Virus record (IMG/VR): IMGVR_UViG_3300021407_000012 | Span: 17,844 to 81,843 of that record | Length of the DNA: 64,000 nt | Source: a virus | Reading direction: 5' to 3' (one strand) | Shown here: in pieces, positions 4,495 through 63,521 of the stretch | Numbering within the stretch: the first letter of the stretch is position 1 | Layout: every line of letters starts with the position of its first letter | Made by a program: the position numbers and the translations under genes | Notes under the pieces: model-generated | What the model saw: the letters and a program-made list of their open reading frames with translations, nothing else | Told to the model about the DNA's origin: nothing | Database searches by the model: none

Positions 4495-4521
4495 TACGTA
4501 TACTACCTCTGCGTATTAAAG

Positions 4522-4880: not shown

Positions 4881-4922
4881 TGCTACTACCTTAGAATGAC
4901 CATGATATTGAACGTAACAATT

Positions 4923-27177: not shown

Positions 27178-27465
27178 ATGATACTTCCTGAATCTTTAGT
27201 AGGTTATATTGCATCGGTCTATATTTGTCTAGCATCAGCGACCGTTTGTGATAATTCAAATGCTCTTTGGACAAATTGGGCTTATATGCGCCCTGATAAT
27301 GGTATGGTCGAACTTTCGTCCCCTGAGAAATTGAAGCAGATTTGTATCGATACAATGAAAAAAAATATTCCGAAGATCAATGCTCCTTATTTTACCATGG
27401 ACGGGTCGAAAGAGGGCGAGCGATTAAAAATTCGGATTGAATGCGAAAAAGGTGTTGACATCTGA
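27178..27465 (+). CDS. putative secreted protein (95 aa)
   Basis: N-terminal hydrophobic stretch (ESLVGYIASVYICLASA) may be a signal peptide; mature part has two further Cys. The 3' end overlaps the -35 box of the tmRNA promoter. Confidence 0.6.
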   Translation: MILPESLVGYIASVYICLASATVCDNSNALWTNWAYMRPDNGMVELSSPEKLKQICIDTMKKNIPKINAPYFTMDGSKEGERLKIRIECEKGVDI

Positions 27466-27483
27466 CCCAAGATGCAGTATAAA
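27455..27483 (+). promoter_or_regulatory. consensus sigma70 promoter of tmRNA
   Basis: TTGACA (27455-27460), 17 bases, TATAAA (27478-27483). Best promoter in the window; expected start about 27490. Confidence 0.9.
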
Positions 27484-27489
27484 TAAGAC

Positions 27490-27783
27490 ACTGGACGATT
27501 AGTTGATGGTTCAACTAAACACGAAACACTCGGGGGCAGTACCCGATACCTCCACCAAAAGCACATACCCTACCCAAAGGGTTGTTGACAGGGTTGGAAG
27601 GATCAACGCACAGGATGTGCTTTTGATGGGGGTAAAATAGGTTCGACTTCGTGTGGAATGGAATCGGATAGTCGGTCGGTATATAACTGTCGCATCAAAC
27701 GACAACTTTGCTCGGGAACTCGCCCTCGCGGCGTAATTCCCTACGGAGTTCGGTAGCTTCCTTGGCAACAGAAAAGCTACCAT
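27490..27783 (+). ncRNA. ssrA: circularly permuted two-piece tmRNA
   Basis: The acceptor half comes first: T-arm TCGGG-GGCAGTA-CCCGA (27540 region), then TACCTCC plus A-CCA ending at 27557. Its partner strand GGGGGTA lies downstream at 27628-27634, followed by the D-region analogue AGGTTCGACTTCG. The 70-base intervening loop carries an extension of the acceptor stem (AAAAGCACAT with ATGTGCTTTT), so both halves fold together before processing. The tag frame starts at GCA 27692 after ACTGTC and reads ASNDNFARELALAA, stop TAA 27734-27736; NDN near the start and LAA-type end are typical of alphaproteobacterial tags and of ClpXP/ClpAP degrons. A GGTAGCTT/AAGCTACC hairpin ends the gene. Role: rescue of stalled ribosomes, with tagging of the product. 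Exact ends are estimates. Confidence 0.93.
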
Positions 27784-27819
27784 TTCACCATGTGTTTAAC
27801 GAAAATAGGAGTGTATACA

Positions 27820-28326
27820 ATGAGTTTGAATTCGAATGTTCGTAAGTTTGACCCTGTAAAGGGTATGGCGTTTCAGGGCGACCTCGCCATCGTTCCGGTT
27901 CCGGCTTCCGTGAAGCTTAACACCGCCAACGAAATCCAGCCCAAGAACGGCTACCTTGTTCTTCTTGAGGGTGAGTTGACTGGTCATCACCATGCAATTC
28001 CGGTCCTTGAGCGTCCGACCACTCAGGTTGAGCCGAAGACCACCCCGAAGAAGACCAGCAAGACTGTTGAAAACCTTTTCGACCTTGCTACTCAGGCTCC
28101 GTCCACCGCCAAGATGTATCGTGATGCAAACGTCGCATCAGAGATGCAGCGCCTCGGCATCCTTACCCGTACCGACCTGATTGTCGGTGTGCTTGAGGTT
28201 TCCGAAGGTAACGGTGTTATCCTTCGCCATCACGAGCATGATGGTATCCACCTTCCGAAGGGCACTTACTACATCGGTCGTCAGGTCGAAAGTGCTTTCA
28301 ATGAAGAGCGCCGGGTCGCCGACTAA
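27820..28326 (+). CDS. conserved hypothetical protein paired with DUF6745 gene (168 aa)
   Basis: ATG 27820 behind TAGGAG. FQGDLAIVPVP at the N-terminus, a LEGELTGHHHAI segment and ILRHHEHDGIHLPKGTYYIGR at the C-terminus; the histidine-rich repeats look like a metal-binding beta structure. Immediately precedes the DUF6745-like gene and is codon-rich in GC compared with its left neighbours, suggesting high expression. Confidence 0.75.
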   Translation: MSLNSNVRKFDPVKGMAFQGDLAIVPVPASVKLNTANEIQPKNGYLVLLEGELTGHHHAIPVLERPTTQVEPKTTPKKTSKTVENLFDLATQAPSTAKMYRDANVASEMQRLGILTRTDLIVGVLEVSEGNGVILRHHEHDGIHLPKGTYYIGRQVESAFNEERRVAD

Positions 28327-51274: not shown

Positions 51275-51398
51275 ATGTGGAAAGACAACCCAGACGATGT
51301 GGAGCATGCCCGATGGGTTTTTATGTTCCAATTGCTATAAGAAGCTAAGAAGAGCAAAGAAGCGTAAGCGATTGAAAGCAAAGAAGAAACGACTGTAA
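51255..51398 (+). CDS. zinc-ribbon basic protein (47 aa)
   Basis: ATG 51255 overlaps the previous gene. CKCGK...CSNC zinc ribbon followed by a Lys/Arg tail (KKLRRAKKRKRLKAKKK). Its TAA is the first triplet of the conserved promoter element. Confidence 0.65.
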   Translation: MQPLVCKCGKTTQTMWSMPDGFLCSNCYKKLRRAKKRKRLKAKKKRL

Positions 51399-51438
51399 CA
51401 TTTCGTGATTAGACATTCACAATGACTTAGGCTAGTGT
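51396..51438 (+). promoter_or_regulatory. conserved phage promoter, copy 1
   Basis: TAACATTTCGTGATTAGACA with TAGACA as -35 (51410-51415), 17 bases, TAGTGT (51433-51438). Expected to drive the structured RNA and the 51872 gene. Confidence 0.8.
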
Positions 51439-51443
51439 CTTTT

Positions 51444-51526
51444 CACACCGGGACGAACTGGACCGGTTAAGCCTAGTGAAAATAGAGAGCCCCGTGAAAG
51501 TTCGTGTGACAATTAGCGGGGCTCTT
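51444..51526 (+). ncRNA. structured leader with terminator-like hairpin
   Basis: TCACACCGGGACGAACT can pair in two blocks with AGTTCGTGTGA further down, and AGAGCCCCG (51486-51494) with CGGGGCTCT (51517-51525). The two pairings interleave, as in attenuators. No ORF. Confidence 0.4.
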
Positions 51527-51700
51527 CGTAACTTACGTCTATCTCTAGTTTCACACCCGGAGTACGGCATGACCGGAAGGTGTTAAAACTCTTTGTTATG
51601 GTTTGTGGAAACTACCCGGATTTAAACCGGTGGAAATCTTAGCGGATTTTAACGGGGTTCAACTCCCCCTAGGAGGTAACGGAGGTAGACGTAAGTTACG
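51527..51700 (+). ncRNA. unidentified structured RNA closed by a 15-bp stem
   Basis: CGTAACTTACGTCTA (51527-51541) and TAGACGTAAGTTACG (51686-51700) are perfectly complementary and enclose 144 nt with further hairpins (CCGGATTTAAACCGG; GGGG-TTCAACT-CCCC resembling a tRNA T-arm). TTCACACCCGGAGTACGG inside is a diverged echo of TTCACACCGGGACGAACT in the leader. No ORF above 60 aa. Family unknown to me. Confidence 0.55.
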
Positions 51701-51871
51701 AATATACCGGTCATTGGAGGGGGGTAGTTCTCCCTAAAACTTGTGGGCTTCTGGTGTGTCTAACTAACACATTCTTTCCCGCGTGTAGAAAACAATGGCT
51801 TTATTAGCCTTAGGAAGCCACGATTGCGCAGTTGTGGAAAGTAGGGCATTTATGATTTGAAAGGGATAGAA

Positions 51872-52258
51872 ATGAAACCTTTTATTCATGCGAAATCTTC
51901 GGCAGCAAAATATGGTGGTAAGCCCGAAGATTACCTTCCGGTGCACGATCTAATAGATTCATCTAAGGCAGCGTTGCCTGATGTTCGTCACCGTGCCTTG
52001 TTTCATTCGTCCTTTGGTATTTTCATGGTTGAAAAGATACTAGGGACCACATTAACGAATTCGGACGGAAAACAAATTTCTGTTCGAGATATTGCGGAAC
52101 AACACGTTATGGAAGACCTGGGATTTATTCCCACGGTTGAAACGTGGTTTCGTAATATGAAGATTGAACCGTGGATGAATGGTAAAAGAAAAGTTGGTAC
52201 CGTTCACCATATCCCTATGCATCTTGATATGGAGTTAAAAGATGTCCTTGTTGATTAA
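51872..52258 (+). CDS. DUF6915-like protein (128 aa)
   Basis: HAKSSAAKYGGKPEDYLPVHDLIDSSK, DVRHRALFHSSFGIF and IAEQHVMEDLGFIPT follow the DUF6915 pattern, found in phages and bacteria with unknown function (several conserved His suggest metal binding). ATG 51872 behind AGGGAT. Confidence 0.82.
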   Translation: MKPFIHAKSSAAKYGGKPEDYLPVHDLIDSSKAALPDVRHRALFHSSFGIFMVEKILGTTLTNSDGKQISVRDIAEQHVMEDLGFIPTVETWFRNMKIEPWMNGKRKVGTVHHIPMHLDMELKDVLVD

Positions 52259-52691
52259 AACGTTGGTTGCTGAATATAATAAGACCAAGAAAGAATTTAT
52301 GGAGAAAGCGCGGAACGCATTGCGTGGTGCTTTCAATGAATTCTTCGATGCCAATCCAGAGATTGGTCAGGTCGTATGGACGCAGTATACACCATATTTT
52401 AATGATGGTGACGAATGTGTGTTTAGTGTACATGATATGTTTTTCAACTTTGTTACCTTTGATGGTGAACCTGAGGATTATGAAGACGACGACGCGGATT
52501 GTTATGGCGCTAGTTTTTATAGCTATAAGGGTGAGACTGATCCTATCTCGGAACAACGTGCTGCGTTCAAAAATTTCACACATGCAATTCGTGGCCTCCC
52601 CGATGAAATCTTCAAAGATTCTTTTGGGGATCACGTGAAAGTGATTGCCAATCGGGATGGTTTTAATATACAAGAGTATGAGCACGAGTAA
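52242..52691 (+). CDS. acidic hypothetical protein (149 aa)
   Basis: 17-base overlap with the DUF6915 gene, GGAG upstream. Helical N-terminus then a very acidic middle (EPEDYEDDDADCYG). Possible nucleic-acid mimic or inhibitor; unproven. Confidence 0.72.
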   Translation: MSLLIKTLVAEYNKTKKEFMEKARNALRGAFNEFFDANPEIGQVVWTQYTPYFNDGDECVFSVHDMFFNFVTFDGEPEDYEDDDADCYGASFYSYKGETDPISEQRAAFKNFTHAIRGLPDEIFKDSFGDHVKVIANRDGFNIQEYEHE

Positions 52692-52744
52692 TTCTAGCGA
52701 GAGCTAGAGTCCGGAGGTTACTCCCTTTTCCTCCGGTATTACTT

Positions 52745-52786
52745 GAGGGGGTGATGCGCATCGGGCGCTCCCCCCTCCCTTTTTTC
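52745..52786 (+). terminator. intrinsic terminator
   Basis: GAGGGGG and CCCCCTC stem with a GC-rich loop (containing GCGC), followed by TTTTTT. Confidence 0.8.
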
Positions 52787-52805
52787 ACAAGGATTTCCTA
52801 TGCCT

Positions 52806-52989
52806 AAGAGGTAAATTTCTTATATCCGAAAATAAAAAAAAGGTCAGACGTAAACAGCAACTTGCTTATGCTGTAGTTAAATCGCTTGGAATACCATTAA
52901 ATGTAGAGCAAAGTGATAGCCGAAAAAAATACAAAGAAAGAACTGTTCTTTCTTATAAGGCAGTTCAATCGATGGAAATTCAACTTTGA
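52806..52989 (+). pseudogene. truncated duplicate of the 53006 gene
   Basis: An open frame without a usable start encodes KKVRRKQQLAYAVVKSLGI and ends SMEIQL, paralleling KKVRKKRQLAYAVLKSLGI ... VVKSLGIQL of the downstream intact gene. It is the decayed C-terminal half of a tandem duplication; an eight-A run lies in it. Confidence 0.7.
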
Positions 52990-53005
52990 TTAGGATATAC
53001 CTGGG

Positions 53006-53446
53006 ATGAAAGTTTGTATTATATGTGCTACAATGTTTGAGCAAACAAACAATGCACAAAAATGTTGTTCTGAGAACTGTACAAAAATATTAATCAAAAA
53101 ACGTCGAAGACGTTATAATCAATCAGAAAAAGGTAAAGTAACAAATAGACGTAGTAATAAACGTTATCTGAAATCAAAAAAAGGTAAGGAAACTAAAAAA
53201 TCTTATTCTAGAGAATATAGAAAGTTTTATTATCGAACAGAAAGCGGTAAATTACGGATGCAGGCAGCGTCGAAAAAAGTTAGAAAAAAAAGGCAACTTG
53301 CTTATGCTGTACTTAAATCCTTGGGAATAAAGAAAAAGTATAAGAGAGAAAACGAAAAACAAGATGTTAACGTCCTTAAGAAAGAATATGAAAAACGAGT
53401 TGCTGTTGCTTATGAGGTAGTTAAATCGTTGGGAATTCAACTTTGA
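53006..53446 (+). CDS. zinc-finger protein with KGK repeats (146 aa)
   Basis: N-terminal CIICATMFEQ ... CCSENC zinc knuckle, then three to four degenerate repeats of the type YxxSxKGKxTxxR (QSEKGKVTNRR, KSKKGKETKKS, RTESGKLRMQ) and two copies of (R/V)AYAVxKSLGI. Very basic and AT-rich compared with flanks. Resembles phage DNA-binding modules of homing elements without the nuclease; likely mobile. Confidence 0.68.
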   Translation: MKVCIICATMFEQTNNAQKCCSENCTKILIKKRRRRYNQSEKGKVTNRRSNKRYLKSKKGKETKKSYSREYRKFYYRTESGKLRMQAASKKVRKKRQLAYAVLKSLGIKKKYKRENEKQDVNVLKKEYEKRVAVAYEVVKSLGIQL

Positions 53447-53458
53447 TAGGAGAAACAT

Positions 53459-53950
53459 ATGTTACAGATATCTTCACGTACCGGTGCTTCAGCGACACGT
53501 CGTGTTGGTAAGGTTGGTTTACTTCAACTGTTGATCGATCTTATGGAAAATGATCCGACAGCCTCTAAAGAGGTTATGTTTAGAAAGTGGCGTACAGCCA
53601 TTATTAATGATCCTGAAGATGTAGATGTAGCACTATTGTATACATTTACTAATCTTTGGGAAACGGCTGAGCGTGATCGTAAGCAGATGACAAAACCACA
53701 AACAACACGTGATCCCGCACAAATTGAAGCAAAAAAGGCTCAAGTTGCCGAGGTTCGGGAGCAGATTGTTCGCAAAGTGTTTAGTCTTGACTTTGTGATG
53801 CCAAATGGTCAGCAACTTGGAGATTGTACATTTGGCTATCTCGAAAAGGTTGGGGGTGTTTTTGTTAAGATTTCGAAAATGGGTAAGCCAAATCAAGTTA
53901 TTCGTAAAGTCCTTACTGCGAAAAAACTTGAAGAAGCTGCTAGGGAATAA
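53459..53950 (+). CDS. hypothetical protein (163 aa)
   Basis: AGGAG 7 bases upstream. Helical first two-thirds with RKWRTAIIND, then FGYLEKVGGVFVKISKMGKPNQVIRK near the C-terminus. No family recognised. Confidence 0.7.
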   Translation: MLQISSRTGASATRRVGKVGLLQLLIDLMENDPTASKEVMFRKWRTAIINDPEDVDVALLYTFTNLWETAERDRKQMTKPQTTRDPAQIEAKKAQVAEVREQIVRKVFSLDFVMPNGQQLGDCTFGYLEKVGGVFVKISKMGKPNQVIRKVLTAKKLEEAARE

Positions 53951-53955
53951 TTCCC

Positions 53956-54120
53956 ATGATTCTAGGTAGGACTGGAATCCCAACTTGGCAGGATAAGCAA
54001 CAAAATGAGCGTAAACTAGCTAAAGAAGCAACAATATTAGCAAATGAGTTCTTGACACCACATGGCTTTGAAGCTAGGATTGTGCTGTATCCAAAACGGA
54101 AACAAGACAATGAACGATGA
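53956..54120 (+). CDS. small hypothetical protein (54 aa)
   Basis: ATG 53956 five bases after the previous stop; charged helix followed by FEARIVLYPKRKQD. ATGA-type overlap with the next gene. Confidence 0.6.
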   Translation: MILGRTGIPTWQDKQQNERKLAKEATILANEFLTPHGFEARIVLYPKRKQDNER

Positions 54121-54361
54121 TGGTTTAGACATTCCCGAATGTCTCAAGGTTGACCCCGCTTTTCGTGGCAAGGGTGAGGTCACAACCGGTCATGCGGCAC
54201 GTGTTGGTAACGGGGAGAAATCATACCAGACATATAACGGTCGCATGCTGCCCAAGACAATGAGCCCGACAGCATGGGAAATTATCTATGCCGAGGAAAA
54301 ACTGCGTAAGCAGAAAACTGATGAACGTATCACAGAATTGAAGGAAAGGTTTAAGAAATGA
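54110..54361 (+). CDS. hypothetical protein (83 aa)
   Basis: ATG 54110 with ACAAGA upstream. Polar Gly-rich N-terminus, charged C-terminal helix (EEKLRKQKTDERITELKERF). Unknown. Confidence 0.68.
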   Translation: MNDDGLDIPECLKVDPAFRGKGEVTTGHAARVGNGEKSYQTYNGRMLPKTMSPTAWEIIYAEEKLRKQKTDERITELKERFKK

Positions 54362-54816
54362 AAACGGTAACCCTGAGTGAAGGCAAGTGGAACGATATTA
54401 TTTTGATCCTTGCTAAGGGTGCGCAAAGTGCGCCTGATCAAAAACAAGCAACGTATATTCACAATCTTATGATTGCCATTCTTGAAGGGAATGGGGAAGA
54501 AAAAGAAGCTTCTGAAGTTATTGTTCAAGGATATCCAAATGACAAAGATCATGTTGGTTGCATACCCCCGGATGGAACACTCGAAAAGGGATTTAATACA
54601 GTTTTGAGTTATTTGGCGATATATCGTCCTGATTATCTCAGGATGATTGATTTTAAAAACCCCACCACTACGGCGCGGGATGGTTATTGGCTGAAGCATA
54701 ATTATACGGGGGTAACTTTTGATGTTCCCGCCCCGGAATTTTTCCATCGTTTCCATATCGAAACGATCAAGTCCTATCCGAATTATATTCTGGACCAGCG
54801 TTTTCACGACAAGTAA
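54358..54816 (+). CDS. hypothetical protein (152 aa)
   Basis: ATGA overlap. Helical N-terminal half (WNDIILILAKG), then strand/loop region rich in Pro/Tyr. No motif recognised. Confidence 0.7.
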   Translation: MKTVTLSEGKWNDIILILAKGAQSAPDQKQATYIHNLMIAILEGNGEEKEASEVIVQGYPNDKDHVGCIPPDGTLEKGFNTVLSYLAIYRPDYLRMIDFKNPTTTARDGYWLKHNYTGVTFDVPAPEFFHRFHIETIKSYPNYILDQRFHDK

Positions 54817-54834
54817 ATCAACGGAGTATGGAAC

Positions 54835-55014
54835 ATGTCACGTGGTTTTGTTGTTGGTTATGGTTGCCCTGATGGGGGAATGACAACTGATGGAGAAACC
54901 GAATTCGATGCCGAAAGATATTTTGACCGTCATAAAACGAAGCGTGCCAATCGCCGCTTTAATCGTGGCAATCGTCGTGATCGTCGTGATTATGACGACT
55001 ACGATAACGATTAA
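54835..55014 (+). CDS. small Arg/Asp-rich protein (59 aa)
   Basis: GGAG 10 bases before ATG. C-terminal half alternates Arg/Asn with Asp (RGNRRDRRDYDDYDND), likely disordered and nucleic-acid binding. Confidence 0.65.
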   Translation: MSRGFVVGYGCPDGGMTTDGETEFDAERYFDRHKTKRANRRFNRGNRRDRRDYDDYDND

Positions 55015-55086
55015 TAGGTTATGCAACGTCATAGCTTATGATCCAGCTTGCTGTGGCATTTCCTGTCCTGTTGATATGGCTGATAG

Positions 55087-55305
55087 ATGATCCTCAAATT
55101 TGATAAAGCCCTCGATGGGGGTAGTGAAGTATTACATCTTCATATGAGTGAAAAGGGGTATTTTATTCAGCGCCCCCGCATTCGTTTTTTAAACGCTCGA
55201 ATATCCCGTCGCTTTGAGTTTGCATTTGGTTTTGCTGAACCAATGGAACATAGTATGCTGGTATATGTCAATGGTTCTTTCAATAAAGACATAGCTGATA
55301 TGTAA
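55087..55305 (+). CDS. hypothetical protein (72 aa)
   Basis: No strong ribosome-binding site. Strand-rich, ending MLVYVNGSFNKDIADM. Unknown. Confidence 0.5.
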   Translation: MILKFDKALDGGSEVLHLHMSEKGYFIQRPRIRFLNARISRRFEFAFGFAEPMEHSMLVYVNGSFNKDIADM

Positions 55306-55400
55306 ATTTGTATAGCTAATCTGTTTGACTTCGGGTTCGATCTTTTGTACATTCGCGTGGTCAGACGGAATTCACCGCTCTAAACATAGGAGATTATATA

Positions 55401-55850
55401 ATGCCCATTCACACTGGTAAGCGCGAGCCCGCAGTCATTGCTGGTCTTGCATATCTCAACGGTCATATTCGTTACGTTTCCTCTTCGCGTTCGGACCATC
55501 TTCAGTCGGTCCAGGCTCTTCATCCTCAGGACGAGGATGGCAAGCGCGTGACGATTTCTTCGTTCACTCTCTATCGTCTCCCGGAGCCGATGCAGCGCGC
55601 CGAGGCTCTTGCCTATCTGGTGACCAAGTATCAGCCCGACGAAGCGGAACACAAGTTTCTTTCGAGCGAGCACACCAAGCAAGTCAAGCGCGACACCCCG
55701 AAGGGCGAGCGTCGGACTGGCGTCAAGGGCAAGCCGCGGACTGAGTGGTTCACGCCCCCGGTTGATGTGAACGTGACGGTCGAGCGCACGGCACCGAAGC
55801 GTGCCAATGTCCGCAAGCCGAAGAACGACGAGGCGACTGCGGTAGCGTAA
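55401..55850 (+). CDS. hypothetical protein (149 aa), GC-rich
   Basis: TAGGAG 10 bases before ATG. Basic C-terminal half (GERRTGVKGKPRTEW, APKRANVRKPK). Codon use is far richer in GC third positions than in genes left of it, suggesting high expression or separate origin. Followed by a strong terminator. Confidence 0.78.
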   Translation: MPIHTGKREPAVIAGLAYLNGHIRYVSSSRSDHLQSVQALHPQDEDGKRVTISSFTLYRLPEPMQRAEALAYLVTKYQPDEAEHKFLSSEHTKQVKRDTPKGERRTGVKGKPRTEWFTPPVDVNVTVERTAPKRANVRKPKNDEATAVA

Positions 55851-55879
55851 TATCCCCCCTCAAGTACAGCGTAGCGGGG

Positions 55880-55915
55880 AAAGGGGACAGGTACTAGGTG
55901 ACCTGTCCCCTTTAA
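55880..55915 (+). terminator. strong intrinsic terminator
   Basis: AAAGGGGACAGGT and ACCTGTCCCCTTT, a 13-bp perfect stem with an 8-base loop, followed by AATT. Confidence 0.85.
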
Positions 55916-55933
55916 TTCTAGGAACCTATATCA

Positions 55934-56107
55934 ATGTATAACTGGCGTATTGAACTGAGAGATGGTAATTTCGAGATTGATATCGCAAAGCGTGTTGACA
56001 TTCTTAATGGTCATCTCGTGCTGCGCGATGAGCAGGGTATGATTATCAAAGGTTATAATCAAACCCATTGGATTGGTTTTGAACAGCTTTCGAAAGCGGA
56101 GCATTAA
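55934..56107 (+). CDS. small hypothetical protein (57 aa)
   Basis: MYNWRIELRDGNFEIDIA start, beta-rich, like small phage proteins displaying LVLRDEQG. Stop overlaps next start (taATG). Confidence 0.65.
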   Translation: MYNWRIELRDGNFEIDIAKRVDILNGHLVLRDEQGMIIKGYNQTHWIGFEQLSKAEH

Positions 56108-56271
56108 TGTATAAGGTCCAGTTTATCAACACCGTAACAGGTAAGGGTTACATCGATGGTTTTAAAACCGCGAAGGAAGCCAAACGAGTTGCGGAGAAGT
56201 TCAACCTCTATTACCTACAGGATAGTGTCAAGTATCCTGTGCGTACCAAATACTTGGGCAAAAACGCCTAG
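56107..56271 (+). CDS. small hypothetical protein (54 aa)
   Basis: MYKVQFINTVTGKGYIDGF with a helix TAKEAKRVAEKF, resembling a compact beta-alpha fold. taATG overlap. Confidence 0.65.
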   Translation: MYKVQFINTVTGKGYIDGFKTAKEAKRVAEKFNLYYLQDSVKYPVRTKYLGKNA

Positions 56272-56312
56272 ATGTCCTAATTGTGGTCAACCTGAAACGG
56301 AGTGTATGTGCT

Positions 56313-56531
56313 ATGAAGCTTTCGGTTCTTGTTGCTAATCTGGCGCTCGGCTATCTTATTGCTGCGGGCGTCTATCAGACAGTGCAGTGGTTGGCAGTGT
56401 TGCCGTTCCTGGCATTCCTGTCAGTCGCCGCCCCCGCTATTGGTGTTTTGTTAGCGGGGCTGGTGTTCGTTCTTTTCATCGTCCTTTGGATTGGGTCGAT
56501 GATTTCGGGGTCGGCGATTTTTGAGGATTGA
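56313..56531 (+). CDS. membrane protein (72 aa)
   Basis: Two to three hydrophobic segments over nearly the whole length; ATG 56313. A Cys-rich frame (CPNCGQPETECMC) overlaps its start and may be a small zinc protein from GTG 56224. Confidence 0.65.
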   Translation: MKLSVLVANLALGYLIAAGVYQTVQWLAVLPFLAFLSVAAPAIGVLLAGLVFVLFIVLWIGSMISGSAIFED

Positions 56532-56534
56532 CAG

Positions 56535-56663
56535 GTGCAAATTTTTCTGCTAGTCTGTGGGATTCTGTGTTTTTCAGGTGTGTGGGCACTTGGTCATCTT
56601 TTGACCATGTACCCCGACCAAAAATATACCTCTAGCAGACACACAGAATATTACACTTCGTAA
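56535..56663 (+). CDS. possible 42-aa membrane/secreted peptide
   Basis: GTG start with GAGGATTG upstream; hydrophobic N-terminus (IFLLVCGILCFSGVWALG) then polar tail; its TAA begins the promoter copy at 56661. Alternatively the region is only a promoter (TTGACA 56528, TAGTCT 56551). Confidence 0.42.
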   Translation: MQIFLLVCGILCFSGVWALGHLLTMYPDQKYTSSRHTEYYTS

Positions 56664-56703
56664 CATTTCGTGATTGGACACTAAGCGATCAAGCTGGCAT
56701 TCT
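56661..56703 (+). promoter_or_regulatory. conserved phage promoter, copy 2
   Basis: TAACATTTCGTGATTGGACA, -35 TGGACA (56675-56680), 17 bases, CATTCT (56698-56703), upstream of the 56730 gene. Confidence 0.75.
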
Positions 56704-56729
56704 CCGATTGTCAAATAGGAGACAGTCCC

Positions 56730-57125
56730 ATGATGAAGCTTGGTTCCCAAACGAATAGCCTAGTCAACCATATTCAATCTCGTGCGACCATTGGTCAGCC
56801 CGTACCTGAGGTTGGTATGGGTGCCACAATCCTGGCGTGGACTGATCGATACCCGGCAACGATTGTCGAGGTACAGGTGATTAAAGGTCGCACCTACGTC
56901 ACGGTGCAAGAGGATCGCGCCAAGATGATATCGGGGGATTATTACAATCCTGGCGAGTATGAATACACTCGCAATCCCGAGGCGTCTTTCCAGACTTGGC
57001 GCACCAACGATAAGGGTTTTTGGGAGGGAACCTATTTCAATCCCAAGACCAAGCGTTGGGTTAAAAACCCTGGCAATGGTCTGCGCATTGGTGATCGTGA
57101 CAAGTATCACGACCCATCGTTTTAA
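56730..57125 (+). CDS. hypothetical protein (131 aa)
   Basis: ATG 56730 or 56733, TAGGAG upstream. Strand-rich: MGATILAWTDRYPATIVEV looks like an SH3-type start; EYEYTRNPEASFQTW in the middle. Conserved style of phage early proteins; function unknown. Confidence 0.75.
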   Translation: MMKLGSQTNSLVNHIQSRATIGQPVPEVGMGATILAWTDRYPATIVEVQVIKGRTYVTVQEDRAKMISGDYYNPGEYEYTRNPEASFQTWRTNDKGFWEGTYFNPKTKRWVKNPGNGLRIGDRDKYHDPSF

Positions 57126-57276
57126 TTGGCGAGTGGGGCAGCACGGCATCGTGCGTTCCACGGACTAGTAGGGGGGAGGGTGGATAGGTAAGTATCCATT
57201 CCCTTACCGGATGAAATCCCTTGACCGGGAATATAGAGCCTCCCCTTTTAATTCCCTGCATAAAGGATTAATAACA

Positions 57277-57543
57277 ATGACCGGTGATAAACATTTCGAT
57301 GAGATGCAGACAATCGCAAAGACAGCAATGTCTTTAGCTGAAAATGCCATGGCGCAACTAAAAAGAATTGCTGATGCGCTCGGCACCGAAGAGCGGGGTG
57401 AGGCTCTTGTCGAGATTGCACGCAACGCCCACCGGGCAGAACAAAAGTTGGCGGCATTCGAGCGTGATTTGAATTCTCCTTCATTTTATGCGGTTGATTT
57501 GTTTCCTCTTGTGAATAAGCATTTTCCAATTCCTAAGGATTAA
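57277..57543 (+). CDS. helical protein (88 aa)
   Basis: ATG 57277 behind AAAGGATT. Residues 5-65 are one amphipathic helix/coiled coil (AKTAMSLAENAMAQLKRIAD). Preceded by 150 bases with a GCACG-GCAT-CGTGC hairpin and no ORF. Confidence 0.68.
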   Translation: MTGDKHFDEMQTIAKTAMSLAENAMAQLKRIADALGTEERGEALVEIARNAHRAEQKLAAFERDLNSPSFYAVDLFPLVNKHFPIPKD

Positions 57544-57546
57544 TAT

Positions 57547-58059
57547 ATGAAGTGGTTATTTGTTCTATTATCTCTTTTATCTACACCTGTATTGGCGTTA
57601 GATAATCCCGCATGGGAACAGAAGAGACAAGAGGCATTGCGTAATGGTGATCAACAGACGCTTGATAAGTTATATTATATTTCCAATGCCGGGCGATTAA
57701 GAAACATGAACGGGTCCGAATCACCCGTATCATGTTGTGGCGCTGCCGAAGCATATGAGGCTGATGATATTTGGACAGATGAATATGGAAATGCATGGGC
57801 AGTCCTTACATGTAACGATCCAACTAATTGTGAAGAGGTACCGGGAAAAGTAGTACGTAAACCTGGGGAAAAATTTATTATTCCTAATGATCGTCATCTC
57901 GCTAATCACACTCCGGTAAATCATACCGGGCATGGATGGATATGGATTTCTCCTAATGGTACGAGCTATTATGGAGAAGTAAATGGTAATGGTTTTCTGA
58001 AAGGTCCCATGATCATGCAGCCTACCATTATCTGTTACACTGAGCCTTTCCTCGAATAG
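57547..58059 (+). CDS. secreted Cys protein (170 aa)
   Basis: Signal peptide KWLFVLLSLLSTPVLA. Mature protein has CCGAAEAYEADDIW, a second Cys pair (LTCNDPTNC) and TGHGWIWISPNG near the end; disulfides likely. Periplasmic, no family recognised. Confidence 0.75.
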   Translation: MKWLFVLLSLLSTPVLALDNPAWEQKRQEALRNGDQQTLDKLYYISNAGRLRNMNGSESPVSCCGAAEAYEADDIWTDEYGNAWAVLTCNDPTNCEEVPGKVVRKPGEKFIIPNDRHLANHTPVNHTGHGWIWISPNGTSYYGEVNGNGFLKGPMIMQPTIICYTEPFLE

Positions 58060-58068
58060 GAGAATAAT

Positions 58069-58245
58069 ATGAAAGAGTTAAAAGATAATACTCTGCGGCT
58101 AATCCGTAATGCTGTGCGTGATACCACTCTTTTGAAGGGGTCGGTTGTTCTTATTCCCCGTGAGATGAATTTTGATAACATTCGTCGGGAAAAGGCAGAA
58201 AAGGATCGTTTGAAGAAAATTGCCGACGACGCATTTGGAGAATAA
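58069..58245 (+). CDS. small hypothetical protein (58 aa)
   Basis: ATG behind AGGAG. Helical C-terminus (REKAEKDRLKKIADDAF); unknown. Confidence 0.68.
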   Translation: MKELKDNTLRLIRNAVRDTTLLKGSVVLIPREMNFDNIRREKAEKDRLKKIADDAFGE

Positions 58246-58246
58246 T

Positions 58247-58357
58247 ATGTTTTCAGTTTGTGTTGCATTGCTCATAATCAAAGGATGTATCGACTTGTAC
58301 CTTATATCGAAGGGAGGGTTTCCTGTTATTGCTCATTTAATCACGAGGTTAACATGA
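58247..58357 (+). CDS. 36-aa membrane peptide
   Basis: One base after the previous stop, GGAG upstream. Hydrophobic (VCVALLIIKGCIDLYLIS). Tentative. Confidence 0.5.
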   Translation: MFSVCVALLIIKGCIDLYLISKGGFPVIAHLITRLT

Positions 58358-58360
58358 CTG

Positions 58361-58422
58361 TAACATTTTGTGATGGTCTTCGACCAAGTGTAGCTTGACA
58401 TTCCTTTTGAATTTGCTAGAGT
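58361..58422 (+). promoter_or_regulatory. conserved phage promoter, copy 3 (long-spaced type)
   Basis: TAACATTTTGTGAT at 58361, then TTGACA (58395-58400), 16 bases, TAGAGT (58417-58422). Same box but 20 bases further from the -35 than in copies 1 and 2. Confidence 0.7.
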
Positions 58423-58426
58423 GTGT

Positions 58427-58572
58427 AGGCGTTGAGAGCAAGACGGTATCAGGCGCCTTAACCGGTTACGACCGTAAAGGGAGATAGTTGGAACTGAGAA
58501 AGTTAGCTGGTACTAGTGAAACGGCTAATGAGTAATGGAACCTTCCGGGTTCGAGCCCCGACCAACGCAGCT
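58427..58572 (+). ncRNA. tRNA-like structured leader
   Basis: GCGTTG near the 5' end can pair with CAACGC at the 3' end, directly preceded by a T-arm-like CGGG-TTCGAGC-CCCG. Between lie hairpins ACGGT/ACCGT and GTTAGC/GGCTAAT. No CCA end and no anticodon arm, so not a tRNA; it forms the 5' region of the 58593 gene transcript. Function unknown. Confidence 0.45.
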
Positions 58573-58592
58573 AATTCAAGGGAGTAAAGATC

Positions 58593-58787
58593 ATGGATAC
58601 GTTCACCGCATGCTCGATTGTCGAAGGATTTTCAGGCGAAGAGCATACCGAAGAGGAATTTATTGCGGCATGGCAACACCTGATTGATACCGGCGCATGC
58701 TGGTCGCTTCAGGGATGGTATGGGCGTGGTGCAATGGCGATGATCAAGGCAGGGCATTGCACTGCCCCGCAAAATGAAGATAGGTAA
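58593..58787 (+). CDS. conserved small phage protein (64 aa)
   Basis: AGGGAG before ATG. EEEFIAAWQHLIDTGACWSLQ with GWYGRGAMAMIKAGHC is a widespread small phage protein pattern of unknown function. Confidence 0.75.
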   Translation: MDTFTACSIVEGFSGEEHTEEEFIAAWQHLIDTGACWSLQGWYGRGAMAMIKAGHCTAPQNEDR

Positions 58788-58791
58788 ACAA

Positions 58792-59004
58792 ATGAATTGG
58801 AAAGAGACTGATATTATACCGGGCATGCTGGTTCAAAATAGCGAACCCGGTGCGTGGCTGATTTATTACAATACCTTTACGGGAACAGATGCCCCGTATG
58901 GTATGACAAACCTCAAGACAGCCGAGGTAAACAAATACTCGCTTCAAAGTTTACTTGATGTGCTTAATAATGGATCATATACAGCAATGGAGGTCCCCCA
59001 ATGA
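58792..59004 (+). CDS. hypothetical protein (70 aa)
   Basis: ATG 58792 preferred over 58774 because of the ATAGG upstream. ATGA-type overlap with the next gene. Unknown. Confidence 0.65.
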   Translation: MNWKETDIIPGMLVQNSEPGAWLIYYNTFTGTDAPYGMTNLKTAEVNKYSLQSLLDVLNNGSYTAMEVPQ

Positions 59005-59237
59005 AAGCCAAAGGCACTATTTCTATTTGCGCCAAGTGTTCTGACATGTTCGGTGCAGTAGTATACGATGAAAATCATAAAGAGATACTAGATTATGATG
59101 GTTATGTACCATCCTTTTTTCCCGGACAACATTTCAGGGATTATGTGATGCTCGATATTGATCTAGAAACGGGGAAGATTCTCAATTGGGAAGCGCCAAC
59201 TGTGGCTCAATTGCAAGAGATGAAGGATCGCGAATGA
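59001..59237 (+). CDS. hypothetical protein (78 aa)
   Basis: CAKCSDMFGAVVYDENHKEI, then YVPSFFPGQHFRDYVMLDID; a known-looking phage early protein with a single CxxC. Unknown. Confidence 0.7.
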   Translation: MKAKGTISICAKCSDMFGAVVYDENHKEILDYDGYVPSFFPGQHFRDYVMLDIDLETGKILNWEAPTVAQLQEMKDRE

Positions 59238-59392
59238 TCCCGCTGTTCACGCCAATGTCGCGACGCCTTAGATGGTGGTGTTTGATTTTCGGACACCGTT
59301 GGTGGGCATATCATCGGGACGAATGGGATGTAGTCAAGCCCGGCGAGGCAACGCATTTCTGTACAACATGCGGAGAGAATAAAATCCTGTAA
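59234..59392 (+). CDS. small zinc-ribbon-like protein (52 aa)
   Basis: ATGA overlap. FGHRWWAYHRDEWDV then CTTCGENK, with Cys at IFG-proximal position: likely zinc-binding. Its TAA is the start of promoter copy 4. Confidence 0.65.
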   Translation: MIPLFTPMSRRLRWWCLIFGHRWWAYHRDEWDVVKPGEATHFCTTCGENKIL

Positions 59393-59432
59393 TATTTCGT
59401 GATTTGACGTTTGTAATGTGATCGCTTATTCT
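59390..59432 (+). promoter_or_regulatory. conserved phage promoter, copy 4
   Basis: TAATATTTCGTGATTTGACG, -35 TTGACG (59404-59409), 17 bases, TATTCT (59427-59432). Confidence 0.8.
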
Positions 59433-59459
59433 CCTATTTGTCAGATAGGAGATACGAAC

Positions 59460-59789
59460 ATGTACGCCGCTGGTGTTGCTTCTGATCTTCGCTCGTTCAT
59501 CGTGAACACCGAAGACGGTCCCGTGCAGGATGTGGTTCCGTATTATTACGTGCTGGTCGAGGATGACGCTGGTCATCGTTGGGTTACCGGCGACGTGTTC
59601 GATACAGAAACCGAGGCTCAAGCCGTGGTTGACTTCAACGATTATCACGGTATTAATCCCGGCAATTCGGATACGTTTTATAAGAGCACGCCTTGCTATG
59701 GTTCCGATGCGTGGGGACCTGAGGATGATTATGAGTTGGCTTGTTTCGAGGCTGATTGTTATAACGAACCCCGCCCCCAATGGTTTTAA
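59460..59789 (+). CDS. acidic hypothetical protein (109 aa)
   Basis: TAGGAG before ATG 59460. Strongly acidic with YYYVLVEDDAGHRWVTGDVF, a beta-hairpin-like motif; C-terminal half rich in Asp/Tyr. Possible host-factor inhibitor; unproven. Confidence 0.72.
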   Translation: MYAAGVASDLRSFIVNTEDGPVQDVVPYYYVLVEDDAGHRWVTGDVFDTETEAQAVVDFNDYHGINPGNSDTFYKSTPCYGSDAWGPEDDYELACFEADCYNEPRPQWF

Positions 59790-59799
59790 TGGGGCGACA

Positions 59800-59973
59800 A
59801 TGAAAAAATCCCGCACAGATATCAAACATATGGCGCAGGCTGAATTGCTTGGTGCAATGATGAATGCGTTTTATGATCCAAATTTACCGAATGAACTAAG
59901 GGCAGAAATGCACGAACAAGCTAAGCGTGTAGAAAAGCTTTTTGGTTATATTCCAGGCACTTGGGTTTCGTAG
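59800..59973 (+). CDS. small helical protein (57 aa)
   Basis: ATG 59800; helical (MAQAELLGAMMNAFYD ... EMHEQAKRVEKLFGY). Unknown. Confidence 0.65.
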   Translation: MKKSRTDIKHMAQAELLGAMMNAFYDPNLPNELRAEMHEQAKRVEKLFGYIPGTWVS

Positions 59974-59976
59974 ATG

Positions 59977-60019
59977 TAACATTTCGTGATTAGACAATAG
60001 AAAGAAATCTGGTAAGCTA
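59977..60019 (+). promoter_or_regulatory. conserved phage promoter, copy 5
   Basis: TAACATTTCGTGATTAGACA, -35 TAGACA (59991-59996), 17 bases, weak -10 AAGCTA. Followed by a 110-base leader with TTGACAA/TTGTCGA pairing potential. Confidence 0.7.
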
Positions 60020-60131
60020 CACACATTGACAACGAAGCACAACGCTTCGCCTACCAAGTCACGGCGCTAACCCCGTGGGTGGGATATGGGCTGAAACCCC
60101 GAATTGTCGATCCAAAAACGGAGTAACACAA

Positions 60132-60320
60132 ATGACCACGGTTTTTGTTAAGAAGCCCTACAATCTGGTGCGTCGCGTGCCGGTCACCAAGATTCTGAAA
60201 GAGTTCCCGTTCAACGGAACGCAGCTTGAACTGGCGCACCGGCTTATGAAGCCGAAGTTTGGAGCAAACCTGACGTGGGTCGAGGCGAAGAGCGTCATCG
60301 ACTGGTACGCCCAGGTGTAA
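60132..60320 (+). CDS. small hypothetical protein (62 aa)
   Basis: ATG 60132 behind GGAGTAAC. Basic, VKKPYNLVRRVPVTKILKEF then KFGANLTWVEAKSVIDWY. Unknown. Confidence 0.7.
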   Translation: MTTVFVKKPYNLVRRVPVTKILKEFPFNGTQLELAHRLMKPKFGANLTWVEAKSVIDWYAQV

Positions 60321-60522
60321 GAAATTACAGGGATGCGGCATTAATTGCCTATAAGCAACCTGTAATAATGAGCCTAGCCGTGCCCGAATCCTCAATTAGT
60401 CAAGACACGTAGGCAATAGTCCGGTGGTACCTTGCCCGTAAGGGTTTCTAGACAACTGAGCGGTGTTGGCAAACCCGGCAAATGGGGTGGAAAGCCCCTA
60501 ACCACAAATAGGAGATATGACC
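60321..60522 (+). other. 202-base intergenic leader, no ORF
   Basis: Contains TTACAGG/CCTGTAAT and GGGGTGGAAAGCCCC pairing segments, suggesting a structured 5' leader for the 60523 gene. No promoter copy and no gene seen. Confidence 0.4.
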
Positions 60523-60873
60523 ATGAGTGACAATTCGAAATTTGAAATCGTTTGGTTCGATGCGTTGCGTAATGCGAACAATGCGGCAGTGGCACAAAAT
60601 GCCAAGCTTGGCGACGAAAAGTTCCGCGGGCTTGATTGTGGTTTTGCTTGGTTGCAGTTTCCCGGCAATACCCCGTTTGCGCGTTGGGCAAAGAAACAGC
60701 CTAACCTTACGTCGAAGGGATATCCGACCGGTTTGACCATCTGGTATTCCAAGCTGCATCGTGTTTCCACTCAATCGGTGAGTGTGCATGAGGCTGCGGC
60801 AAAGGCAGCGTGCGATACTTTCAAGGCGCTGTTGCCTGAGGCAAAGGTTACGTGGTCAAGCCGCCTCGATTAG
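60523..60873 (+). CDS. hypothetical protein (116 aa)
   Basis: ATG 60523 (60517 also in frame) behind AGGAG. Trp/Ala-rich: FAWLQFPGNTPFARWAKKQ and GYPTGLTIWYSKLHRV. A common phage early-region protein type; function unknown. Confidence 0.75.
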   Translation: MSDNSKFEIVWFDALRNANNAAVAQNAKLGDEKFRGLDCGFAWLQFPGNTPFARWAKKQPNLTSKGYPTGLTIWYSKLHRVSTQSVSVHEAAAKAACDTFKALLPEAKVTWSSRLD

Positions 60874-60917
60874 TAACATTTCGTGATTAGACACTAGCAT
60901 TTCTTTCGTGCTAGTGT
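60874..60917 (+). promoter_or_regulatory. conserved phage promoter, copy 6
   Basis: TAACATTTCGTGATTAGACA, -35 TAGACA (60888-60893), 18 bases, TAGTGT (60912-60917). CTAGCA...TGCTAG in the spacer is an inverted repeat. Confidence 0.82.
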
Positions 60918-60943
60918 CTTTTCAACGAAAGGGAGTTAATCAC

Positions 60944-61357
60944 ATGCGCGATCATCGGGTTGAGGTTGTTTCTCGTCTCACTGGTTTGGGCATCGATCAT
61001 TACGACGCTCTGGAACTGCGTCGTATCGCAATGACGCTGCATCGCTGGTGTGAACTGGAATGCGGCGACAGCGACAATTATAAGTCCTGGGCTATCGAGC
61101 GCGACGAGGTTACCGACAAGCCATATATGTGCATCTATCCGCATAGTGATAACAAAGTGCGTCGTTATCCGGTGGCTGATCGAGAAAAGGGTGCCGGGCG
61201 TCGTTTGCTCAAGATTATGGCAAAGTATCCTGATTTTGTGCCGTACTATCAGACTGATTGTCGCGGTGCCCCCTTGTATATCGTGAAAAAGTCTGATATA
61301 CCTGAGGGTGCATCAATCGATGCCTATTACAACAGAGGCGTAGCGGTGTACAAATGA
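60944..61357 (+). CDS. hypothetical protein (137 aa)
   Basis: GGGAG before ATG 60944. LTGLGIDHYDALELRRIAMTLH and WCELECGD are a recurring pattern in phage early proteins; C-terminal YYQTDCRGAPLYIV. Unknown function. Confidence 0.75.
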   Translation: MRDHRVEVVSRLTGLGIDHYDALELRRIAMTLHRWCELECGDSDNYKSWAIERDEVTDKPYMCIYPHSDNKVRRYPVADREKGAGRRLLKIMAKYPDFVPYYQTDCRGAPLYIVKKSDIPEGASIDAYYNRGVAVYK

Positions 61358-61530
61358 ACACGTCAACGAGATACGTAATCGCCACGAAAGGCGGTGGTTA
61401 CATGGGCGCAGCGCAAGAGTGGCGCAACGTGCCTTTCGAGCAGGCTGCACTGTTTATTGAGAAGTCTCGTGCAATGTCTGTTGTTAAAGAGGGCGATAAC
61501 GTTTTGCCTGTCAAGATCACCATTGATTGA
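61354..61530 (+). CDS. small hypothetical protein (58 aa)
   Basis: ATGA overlap. TRYVIATKGGGYMGAAQEW then an alpha/beta tail. Unknown. Confidence 0.68.
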   Translation: MNTSTRYVIATKGGGYMGAAQEWRNVPFEQAALFIEKSRAMSVVKEGDNVLPVKITID

Positions 61531-61538
61531 GGAAACCC

Positions 61539-61778
61539 ATGTCAGTGAAAGGCGAGATTGTTTTGCATGATACGCGCTATTATCTACACAAGAAACATGT
61601 GCGTATCATGCTTTCACAGCGTGCTCCTAATACGTCCGACATGCATTATGTGATTTGCCATTATGTTAATAATGCGGTGGCAGCGACGTATTACGCTGGA
61701 ACTGATGGGGAGCATGCATCGAAAATGTTTAATGCTCAGAATTATACTTATAAGGTCATGAGAGATGTTGGAATATGA
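61539..61778 (+). CDS. hypothetical protein (79 aa)
   Basis: ATG 61539 behind GAGGAAA. Strand-rich, His/Tyr-rich. ATGA overlap downstream. Confidence 0.68.
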   Translation: MSVKGEIVLHDTRYYLHKKHVRIMLSQRAPNTSDMHYVICHYVNNAVAATYYAGTDGEHASKMFNAQNYTYKVMRDVGI

Positions 61779-61966
61779 CTAAAGAGAAACGTTTACAGGT
61801 GATTTCTGCCTATTGTGAGGCGTTAAAAACAGCATGGGGCGCATGTCCTCATTTGCGTTTAGGGCAATTGATCGTCAATGCAACAGGCGTCAATAATCCT
61901 TTCTATATCGAGGATCAACATTTGATCGAAAAACTTAATTCATTTGCTGATAAATGGGGAGATTGA
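61775..61966 (+). CDS. conserved small phage protein (63 aa)
   Basis: LRLGQLIVNATGVNNPFYIED is a frequent pattern in small phage proteins (interaction with DNA or polymerase suspected, unproven). ATGA overlap. Confidence 0.75.
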   Translation: MTKEKRLQVISAYCEALKTAWGACPHLRLGQLIVNATGVNNPFYIEDQHLIEKLNSFADKWGD

Positions 61967-61969
61967 AAT

Positions 61970-62269
61970 ATGAAAATTGCAAATGATATTAGAGCAATCC
62001 TTAATCAAGACAATTGGATTAAGGGTACATATGCCCAGGATAGGCACGGGAATGAGGTTTCATCATTCTCCCTTTATGCATGTAAATTTTGTCTAGGCGG
62101 GGCGTGTCTTTCACTTCACGAGAAATATTCATCTCTTGAAAGAGAGACATTTTATGCTGCTATTCGTGATCATATAGGAAAAGGAATTGCTGAGTTTAAT
62201 GATGATCCGAATACAACCTGGGATGATATTGATCAACTCTTGAAACATATTGAAACACTTCGTGATTAG
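61970..62269 (+). CDS. DUF6197-like protein (99 aa)
   Basis: WIKGTYAQDRHGNEV and KFCLGGACLSLHEK match the DUF6197 style (W...G...CLxGA). Its TAG lies within the -35 of promoter copy 7. Confidence 0.72.
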   Translation: MKIANDIRAILNQDNWIKGTYAQDRHGNEVSSFSLYACKFCLGGACLSLHEKYSSLERETFYAAIRDHIGKGIAEFNDDPNTTWDDIDQLLKHIETLRD

Positions 62270-62296
62270 ACATTAACATTTCTCTCGTGCTAGTGT
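62254..62296 (+). promoter_or_regulatory. conserved phage promoter, copy 7
   Basis: AACACTTCGTGATTAGACA, -35 TAGACA (62267-62272) containing the upstream gene's stop, 18 bases, TAGTGT (62291-62296). Confidence 0.8.
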
Positions 62297-62321
62297 ATAT
62301 CAACGAAAGGGAGTTTTGGTC

Positions 62322-62651
62322 ATGCCTGACACGGTTCGAGGGTTGTGGAAAGCTTACAAGGCAACTCAGACACTTACACATTATGCCGATGCGACATTCG
62401 ATGGTCGTTTGGTTGGCACGCCGCTCGGAGATACATTTTGGTGGGGGCGTAATGTCATCACCGAGTTGTATGCTCGGGGACATATAATCTGCGGTGTGGA
62501 TTATCTGGTCCCGCAATTGATCAATGATGCCGATACCAACACCCTGATTTATCGCACGCTTATGCGTTGCACGGATCGCACCCTGTTTGCGTTCCTTAAG
62601 CGTTTGAACAAGCGGGCAGGCGAACTGCGACCGAAGGTGACCGCGCTATGA
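62322..62651 (+). CDS. hypothetical protein (109 aa)
   Basis: GGGAG before ATG 62322. Helical, basic C-terminus (RLNKRAGELRPKV). WGRNVITELYARGH block. Unknown. Confidence 0.72.
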   Translation: MPDTVRGLWKAYKATQTLTHYADATFDGRLVGTPLGDTFWWGRNVITELYARGHIICGVDYLVPQLINDADTNTLIYRTLMRCTDRTLFAFLKRLNKRAGELRPKVTAL

Positions 62652-62803
62652 ATGATACCCGAAAATTAGACCCTCGCGACCCCGATTATTCCCGCACGGG
62701 AATATTTGTTCACCACAACTGCTGGAAATGCAAGAATGGCGAAAAGCCGTGCGTGAACAAGAAACCAAACTTGTGTGATTATCCTCATGCCCGAAATGAT
62801 TAA
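62648..62803 (+). CDS. small Cys protein (51 aa)
   Basis: ATGA overlap. CWKCKNGEKPC and a fourth Cys suggest a zinc site. Unknown. Confidence 0.65.
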   Translation: MNDTRKLDPRDPDYSRTGIFVHHNCWKCKNGEKPCVNKKPNLCDYPHARND

Positions 62804-63002
62804 CGAATATAAGAGGTTAACGCACTGTTTTACGTTGTTATTCATTTACAAAAATAAGAAATGGATTCGGATTGTTCCTAGGATATTTTTCTCAGAACGT
62901 TCTGATATAGAGAACATGCAAGGGGATTATTATAGGGGCAAGGTGCCAGTTTGGCGGCAAACTCGAATCCCTGATTATGTGAAAGATTGTTTCAAGCCGT
63001 AA
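62787..63002 (+). CDS. small hypothetical protein (71 aa)
   Basis: Overlaps the previous gene by 17 bases. Basic, aromatic; TAA starts promoter copy 8. Confidence 0.6.
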   Translation: MPEMINEYKRLTHCFTLLFIYKNKKWIRIVPRIFFSERSDIENMQGDYYRGKVPVWRQTRIPDYVKDCFKP

Positions 63003-63062
63003 TATTTCGTGATAGCCCACGGCTAGGCGTAGCTTGACAAATCCGTTTTGGTGTTCTATTCT
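63000..63062 (+). promoter_or_regulatory. conserved phage promoter, copy 8 (long-spaced type)
   Basis: TAATATTTCGTGAT at 63000, TTGACA (63034-63039), 17 bases, TATTCT (63057-63062). Same long-spaced layout as copy 3, with GTAGC before the -35 in both. Confidence 0.78.
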
Positions 63063-63089: not shown

Positions 63090-63521
63090 ATGAAAACCCC
63101 GGAACAGTTTCTCGCGAATGTCTCTTACGTCACTTATCACAGCGCAAACGCTGCCACACATGAGGCTTGGTTAGCCTACCCGGTGTTTAATGGTGAGCAA
63201 TGGCTCGTGCGCTCGACGGGTAAAACTGAGGCTGATGCTTTGGTGAAAGCCAAAGAGATCATGACTAAAGAGGCGCACAAGCAGGCAGGCTTGATTGCCA
63301 GTGTGAAGCCCGACGTGGTGGATGCGTCTTTCAAGTTTCCCTCTAAGCCAGATGCCTCGCCAAGCGCGGGCGGTGGTCGTGGAAAGGTTTTTATCGGCAA
63401 GACGTGGATGGTGCTCCGGGATAAGAAAGGCGTCGTGGTGGAGCGCGCCCGTGTCGCTGATGACCAGTTGACGGAATACGAGACCAAGGGCTGGACTCGG
63501 GGAGGTCCCCGGACCAAGTAA
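63090..63521 (+). CDS. hypothetical protein (143 aa)
   Basis: GGGAG before ATG 63090. Alpha/beta N-terminal domain, Gly/Ser linker (SPSAGGGRGK), C-terminal basic segment. GC-rich codons. Unknown. Confidence 0.72.
   Translation: MKTPEQFLANVSYVTYHSANAATHEAWLAYPVFNGEQWLVRSTGKTEADALVKAKEIMTKEAHKQAGLIASVKPDVVDASFKFPSKPDASPSAGGGRGKVFIGKTWMVLRDKKGVVVERARVADDQLTEYETKGWTRGGPRTK

Follow-up and report, generated by a model that had tools for sequence, protein, structure and literature searches.

We analyzed a 64,000-nucleotide stretch of viral DNA (hereafter the window), which covers bases 17,844-81,843 of the 81,843-base IMG/VR virus record IMGVR_UViG_3300021407_000012 and in which a 15-base box with the consensus YTGTAACATTTCGTGAT precedes a series of eight promoters. 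The same box stands in front of promoters in dozens of unrelated phages, in a fixed orientation and at distances from the -35 element that differ by whole turns of the DNA helix, and it is scarce in host genomes. We consider it likely that the box is the oriented site of a putative activator, probably supplied by the host, that would work together with the host's sigma70-type RNA polymerase.

A box in helical phase with the -35 element

With at most one mismatch allowed, GTAAYAYTTYGTGAT was matched eight times in the window, between positions 51395 and 63013 and always on the plus strand (0.08 expected), so that all eight copies listed in the original prediction are present, although the one placed there at 62254 is really GAAACACTTCGTGAT at 62252-62266, the weakest of the set. 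The form TAACATTTCGTGA was matched seven times at the same threshold (0.19 expected, at most two in 100 shuffles), again on the plus strand throughout, between 51396 and 63012. A 3-mismatch search proved too lax, giving matches at chance level, and the counts with at most one mismatch were used in its place. All eight boxes are confined to the last 12.6 kb of the window. The remaining 17.8 kb of the contig were searched as well, as the original prediction had proposed, and the box 16-mer was absent from them with up to two mismatches allowed. Every box in the window is followed by a sigma70-type -35/-10 pair with 16-18-bp spacing. The box adjoins the -35 element in six of the eight copies, while those at 58361 and 63000 are displaced further upstream, by exactly 20 bp from TGAT to TTGACA in both, in agreement with the roughly 20 bases first noted. 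A plain sigma70 scan of the region gave 25 promoter-like sites compared with 26.6 in shuffled sequences, and it is therefore the box, rather than the hexamers, that sets these promoters apart.

The distance between box and promoter follows the same rule across phages. A collection-wide scan for GTAACATTTCGTGATN{0,30}TTGAC gave gaps almost exclusively of 0, 10, 11, 20-22, and 30 bp, apart from one gap each of 7, 18, and 28 bp, the last of these reflecting the promoter's second TTGAC. A scan with a 17-mer that made no demand on the -35 element yielded, among the matches listed, 54 distinct copies after removal of redundancy; all 26 of the 26 strong promoters among them were in phase, at 0 (10), 10 (6), 11 (3), 20 (2), 21 (2), and 31 bp (3), and the resultant length at a 10.4-bp period was 0.63, compared with a mean of 0.13 and a maximum of 0.34 in 300 shuffles. 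In a larger set that includes loci selected by their -35 element, 47 of 63 were in phase (shuffle mean 10.4). Some loci in the wider sets, used for this last count and for promoter anatomy, had been found with a -35 element as a search requirement, whereas the test on 26 promoters draws on the 17-mer scan only. One block of matches sharing GGTATTGTAACATTTCGTGATNCTGTNAG has no phased promoter, resembles a single homologous stretch, and is probably coding; it was entered as out of phase in these statistics. The reversed box was found in 14 stretches, without such phasing. The window copies fit the series, six at phase 0 and two at phase 20.

Class I and class II activators such as the Escherichia coli protein CRP act from sites that abut the -35 element or lie whole turns upstream of it. 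As the distance between box and promoter changes only by whole turns, the bound protein must face RNA polymerase in the way these activators do. The box resembles CRP sites in this placement and differs from them in being asymmetric and oriented, and in occurring in phages and hardly in hosts. The original prediction had held that the box exceeds what sigma70 requires and had left its role between an activator and a repressor site. The first point is borne out by the fixed whole-turn distances in unrelated phages, as expected of a protein site, and on the second the placement at 0, 10-11, 20-21, and 30-31 bp favors an activator over a repressor.

The box itself is asymmetric, with the core GTAAC-N5-GTGAT. 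Among the substitutions that it tolerates are T for C at the fifth core base, AATTC or ATTTA in place of ATTTC, and GAAAC in place of GTAAC, and some copies read GTAACATTTCGTTAC or GTAACAATTCGTTAC. Its halves, TGTAAC and CGTGAT, match YGTRAY repeated at 10 bp, and 20 of 22 matches have an internal spacer of N5, whereas none of the 22 has N6. Such a specific and conserved recognition sequence is what would be seen at an activator site. The promoters that follow have 16-17-bp -35/-10 spacing and short leaders (median 35.5 nt), and in about one quarter of them CATCR lies at a fixed 5-6 nt past the -10 element. This start signature and the -10 element move together with the -35 element and not with the box. 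Records carry one to eight copies in front of promoters, mostly one to five per carrier, with eight in the phage of the window. Three unrelated phages (L019, L053, and positions 487-522 of RHph_N3_19) have boxes paired head to head, the 17-mers in each case 2 bp apart, and in at least one of these phages the pair apparently serves divergent promoters.

Occurrence in phages and scarcity in hosts

Well over 100 virus contigs, from dozens of unrelated phages, carry the box. Its 20-mer form occurs in 27 IMG/VR stretches, and the 17-mer TTGTAACATTTCGTGAT alone gave at least 120 matches in that database. The 20-mer occurred once in bacterial and archaeal genomes totaling 257 Gb, on a contig of a Methylocystis metagenome-assembled genome that carries phage-type genes. 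Among 50,697 phage records, the promoter-associated matches belonged to three Rhizobium phaseoli phages and one Bradyrhizobium prophage. A match in a Salicola phage lies antisense within a gene, and those in the luxR/luxI region of Rhizobium plasmids belong to a different palindrome; both were taken as chance. All named carriers with the box before a promoter infect Alphaproteobacteria, and in the Rhizobium phage RHph_N3_19 the boxes lie in the gap from which the structural module and the first rightward genes diverge. We searched the open literature by motif string and by topic and found no phage or promoter report of the box.

The carriers are diverse, with at least three terminase families, T4-like baseplate and gp32 proteins, and podovirus-like as well as apparently temperate genomes. 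Their loci have no protein family in common, the most widespread one, a terminase, reaching 12 of 65 independent groups, and an OmpR-type DNA-binding domain was not detected above the cut-off in 19 carrier contigs. The original prediction had regarded the box as dedicated to this phage and its own regulator; it is instead common to unrelated phages, and no shared phage gene accompanies it. As these phages share the site and no nearby gene, the activator is most likely encoded by the host, a conclusion that we hold as probable on the variety of carriers and the lack of a common protein.

The factor that may bind the box

In the mechanism that we propose, the factor would be a protein of the host, probably one that is common among Alphaproteobacteria, acting as a class II activator where the box abuts the -35 element and as a class I activator from the same face of the DNA where it is displaced by one, two, or three turns. 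Phages would place the box before early operons for strong transcription. Immediate-early timing is plausible, given the short leaders, the runs of small first open reading frames (ORFs) without known function, and the first genes at the divergent junction of the Rhizobium phage. The tandem GTNAY half-sites 10 bp apart would fit a winged-helix regulator of the OmpR/PhoB type, and regulators of this type with a 10-bp repeat are our preferred class of candidate.

Of published sites, the nearest to the box belong to CenR, an essential OmpR-family regulator whose sites in Rhodobacter sphaeroides are given as TGA-N8-TGA, 28 of 31 of them directly upstream of the -35 element and co-directional with transcription (PMC9275681). 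In Sinorhizobium meliloti, the CenR site AGTCAC-N6-GTGACT adjoins the -35 element of srlA (PMC9561847). As far as these sources describe them, CenR sites are activating and resemble the box in their half-sites (TNAC and GTGAY), their orientation, and their usual position directly before the -35 element. In an alignment of the rpoH1 site TTACATTCGCGTGAT with TAACATTT-CGTGAT of the box, 12 of 14 positions agree. The spacing is different, N6 in an 11-bp repeat for CenR and N5 in a 10-bp repeat for the box, and against a matrix built from the 31 CenR sites the box scores -1.9 with its own spacing, below every listed site, and 10.5, near the median, with one inserted base. Displacement by several turns is a feature of the phage box that the available text of the two sources (PMC9275681, PMC9561847) does not report for CenR. 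Given the N5 spacing (20 of 22, N6 in none), we do not count the box as a CenR site despite its half-sites. CtrA, whose consensus is TTAA-N7-TTAA, is another host response regulator with a site that is used by several alphaproteobacterial phages (PMC9437464), but the box contains no TTAA and is not a CtrA site.

Several observations weigh against a host activator, the first being the failure of the CenR match on spacing. The exact box (at most one mismatch) was present in 6 of 385 host genomes, about the number expected by chance, and no clearly phased promoter was seen among the matches in these genomes except on the phage-gene-bearing Methylocystis contig. A degenerate N5/N6 search of hosts gave 23 places compared with 13 for a reversed-pattern control, the N5 places being unphased, in a weak test under whose pattern CenR's own sites hardly appear. 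With neither the exact box nor phased N5 relatives in host genomes, a host-encoded factor must have own sites that differ from the box or are few. A host could be assigned to a minority of carrier contigs only, and most carriers are fragments, so that a shared phage gene could lie outside the compared loci. Finally, 13-bp perfect palindromes were found at window positions 58371-58386 (TGGTC-TTC-GACCA) and 63010-63025 (TAGCC-CAC-GGCTA), each directly after a displaced box and between it and the -35 element, alike in layout and different in sequence.

The alternative that survives best, which we nevertheless consider unlikely, is a small phage-encoded regulator that is injected or made first and binds the box to activate phage promoters. 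The box is phage-specific and near-invariant, as if selected by one protein, and small ORFs without known function are abundant near it. This would require a protein that the carriers do not visibly share, in view of the results on protein families and OmpR-type domains given above, across phages whose terminases belong to several unrelated families, and it would have to act at promoters that precede the first genes and are needed before phage proteins exist.

Contact by the alpha subunit of RNA polymerase with an UP-type element is improbable. A site just upstream of the -35 element that tolerates displacement by whole turns would be possible for alpha, yet the box, with its 15 near-invariant bases of mixed composition and its fixed spacer, has a specificity far beyond that of A+T-rich UP elements and goes unused by host promoters.

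We give slightly less credence still to an operator or stoperator through which a phage repressor would close early promoters. The stoperators of mycobacteriophage L5 and other cluster A phages, at which the phage repressor halts elongation, are likewise asymmetric, oriented, and present in several copies near gene ends, and the boxes of the window phage lie at gene boundaries much like these 13-bp sites. A repressor, however, needs no placement at zero, one, two, or three turns, whereas the box is tied to promoters in orientation and fixed helical distance; most phages have one to a few copies, placed before promoters (one to eight per record), rather than numerous copies independent of them; and separate, variable palindromes over the -35/-10 region look like the true repressor operators. 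Phasing and copy number led us to reject a stoperator of the L5 kind, and the placement in whole turns is more than an operator alone could account for. It is very improbable that the box is a 23-bp promoter, starting at GGACA, for a single-subunit RNA polymerase of the phage. Length and conservation are suggestive, and RHph_I3_11, a Rhizobium phage, has a box near a ribosome-binding site, but the -35/-10 pair has 16-17-bp spacing and its own start-site signature and shifts by whole turns relative to the box, and this independent movement rules out a T7-like promoter. The T7-type polymerase family had no match in the contig, a weak result, as control genomes also gave none.

Returning to the host activator, we rate at about even chances the broader idea that a conserved bacterial activator, its ideal site scarce in its own hosts, was recruited on separate occasions by many unrelated phages to boost their promoters, as a portable module at zero to three turns. 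With the box, probable early promoters can be located by sequence in many unannotated phages, which probably infect Alphaproteobacteria. It also directs attention to a single factor on which unrelated phages would depend, the identity of which would reveal how phages exploit a common host regulator. The clean natural series of zero, one, two, and three turns lends itself directly to tests of class I and class II activation, and alphaproteobacterial genetics may gain from the box a strong promoter element that is portable.

Promoters and RNAs of the window phage

Genes for T4-type gp32, baseplate proteins, ribonucleotide reductase, and ThyX are present in the window. Among its tRNA genes lies a complete bacterial RNase P RNA of class A (4520-4886; Rfam 167.8 bits, E 2e-52), and a two-piece (permuted) transfer-messenger RNA (tmRNA) of alphaproteobacterial type, with the tag VASNDNFARELALAA, is encoded at 27451-27827. 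The T4-type proteins, together with this tmRNA and the RNase P RNA, suggest that the window is part of the genome of a T4-like phage whose host is probably an alphaproteobacterium.

All eight boxes lie on the plus strand. The first (GTAACATTTCGTGAT, 51395-51409) abuts -35 TAGACA (51410-51415), followed by -10 TAGTGT (51433-51438). The first 420 nt or so of its predicted transcript are strongly structured (51437-51860, z -4.3), and in this RNA a long closing stem surrounds a tRNA-like part that ARAGORN labels tRNA-Stop; it matches no known family, and the first protein gene past it, a 128-aa ORF at 51872-52258, is DUF6915 (PF21866). The same box at 56660-56674 abuts TGGACA (56675-56680), with CATTCT at 56698-56703 and an ORF at 56730-57125. 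At 58360-58374, GTAACATTTTGTGAT is displaced two turns (20 bp) from TTGACA (58395-58400), with TAGAGT at 58417-58422; after this promoter, at 58427-58571, a tRNA-like end GGGTTCGAGCCCCGACCAACGC pairs with GCGTTG about 130 nt upstream, and this region as a whole folds no better than shuffles (z 0.58). The box GTAATATTTCGTGAT at 59389-59403 abuts TTGACG (59404-59409), with TATTCT at 59427-59432 and an ORF at 59460-59789. Two further copies of GTAACATTTCGTGAT abut TAGACA, the one at 59976-59990 with its -35 at 59991-59996, a 16-bp spacer, TAAGCT at 60013-60018, and an ORF at 60132-60320, and the other at 60873-60887 with its -35 at 60888-60893, an 18-bp spacer, TAGTGT at 60912-60917, and an ORF at 60944-61357. 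The leader of the former (60020-60125) folds better than most shuffles (z -2.4). The weakest box (62252-62266) abuts TAGACA (62267-62272), with TAGTGT at 62291-62296 and an ORF at 62322-62651, and the last, GTAATATTTCGTGAT at 62999-63013, is displaced two turns (20 bp) from TTGACA (63034-63039), with TATTCT at 63057-63062 and an ORF at 63090-63521. The -10 elements had been described as resembling TAGTGT or TATTCT, which is correct for the boxes at 51396, 60874, and 62252 (TAGTGT) and at 59390 and 63000 (TATTCT); CATTCT (56661), TAAGCT (59977), and TAGAGT (58361) correct the remainder.

The box had also been described as usually starting on the stop codon of the preceding gene. The upstream stop does lie inside the element in five of the eight cases (TAA at 51396, 56661, 59390, and 63000, and TAG at 62267) and 1-6 bp before it in the other three. 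A regulatory meaning does not follow, since each of the three frames meets its own stop in TAACATTTCGTGATTAGACA (TAA, TGA, or TAG); any reading frame entering it terminates there, and the overlap is automatic. It reflects compact packing, a by-product rather than a regulatory device or signal.

A 10-bp inverted repeat (AGACACTAGC...GCTAGTGTCT, 60887-60919) stretches from the -35 to the -10 element in the promoter at 60874, a length equaled in none of 200 shuffles, and a partial version occurs at 62252; it is possibly a repressor operator. In other phages, promoters with the box one turn upstream (loci L042, L049, L054, L075, L083, L088, L129, L143, and L149) carry repeated palindromes, GCGTATACGC or TGACCTATAGGACA, over the -35/-10 region, as would be expected of temperate-phage repressor operators.

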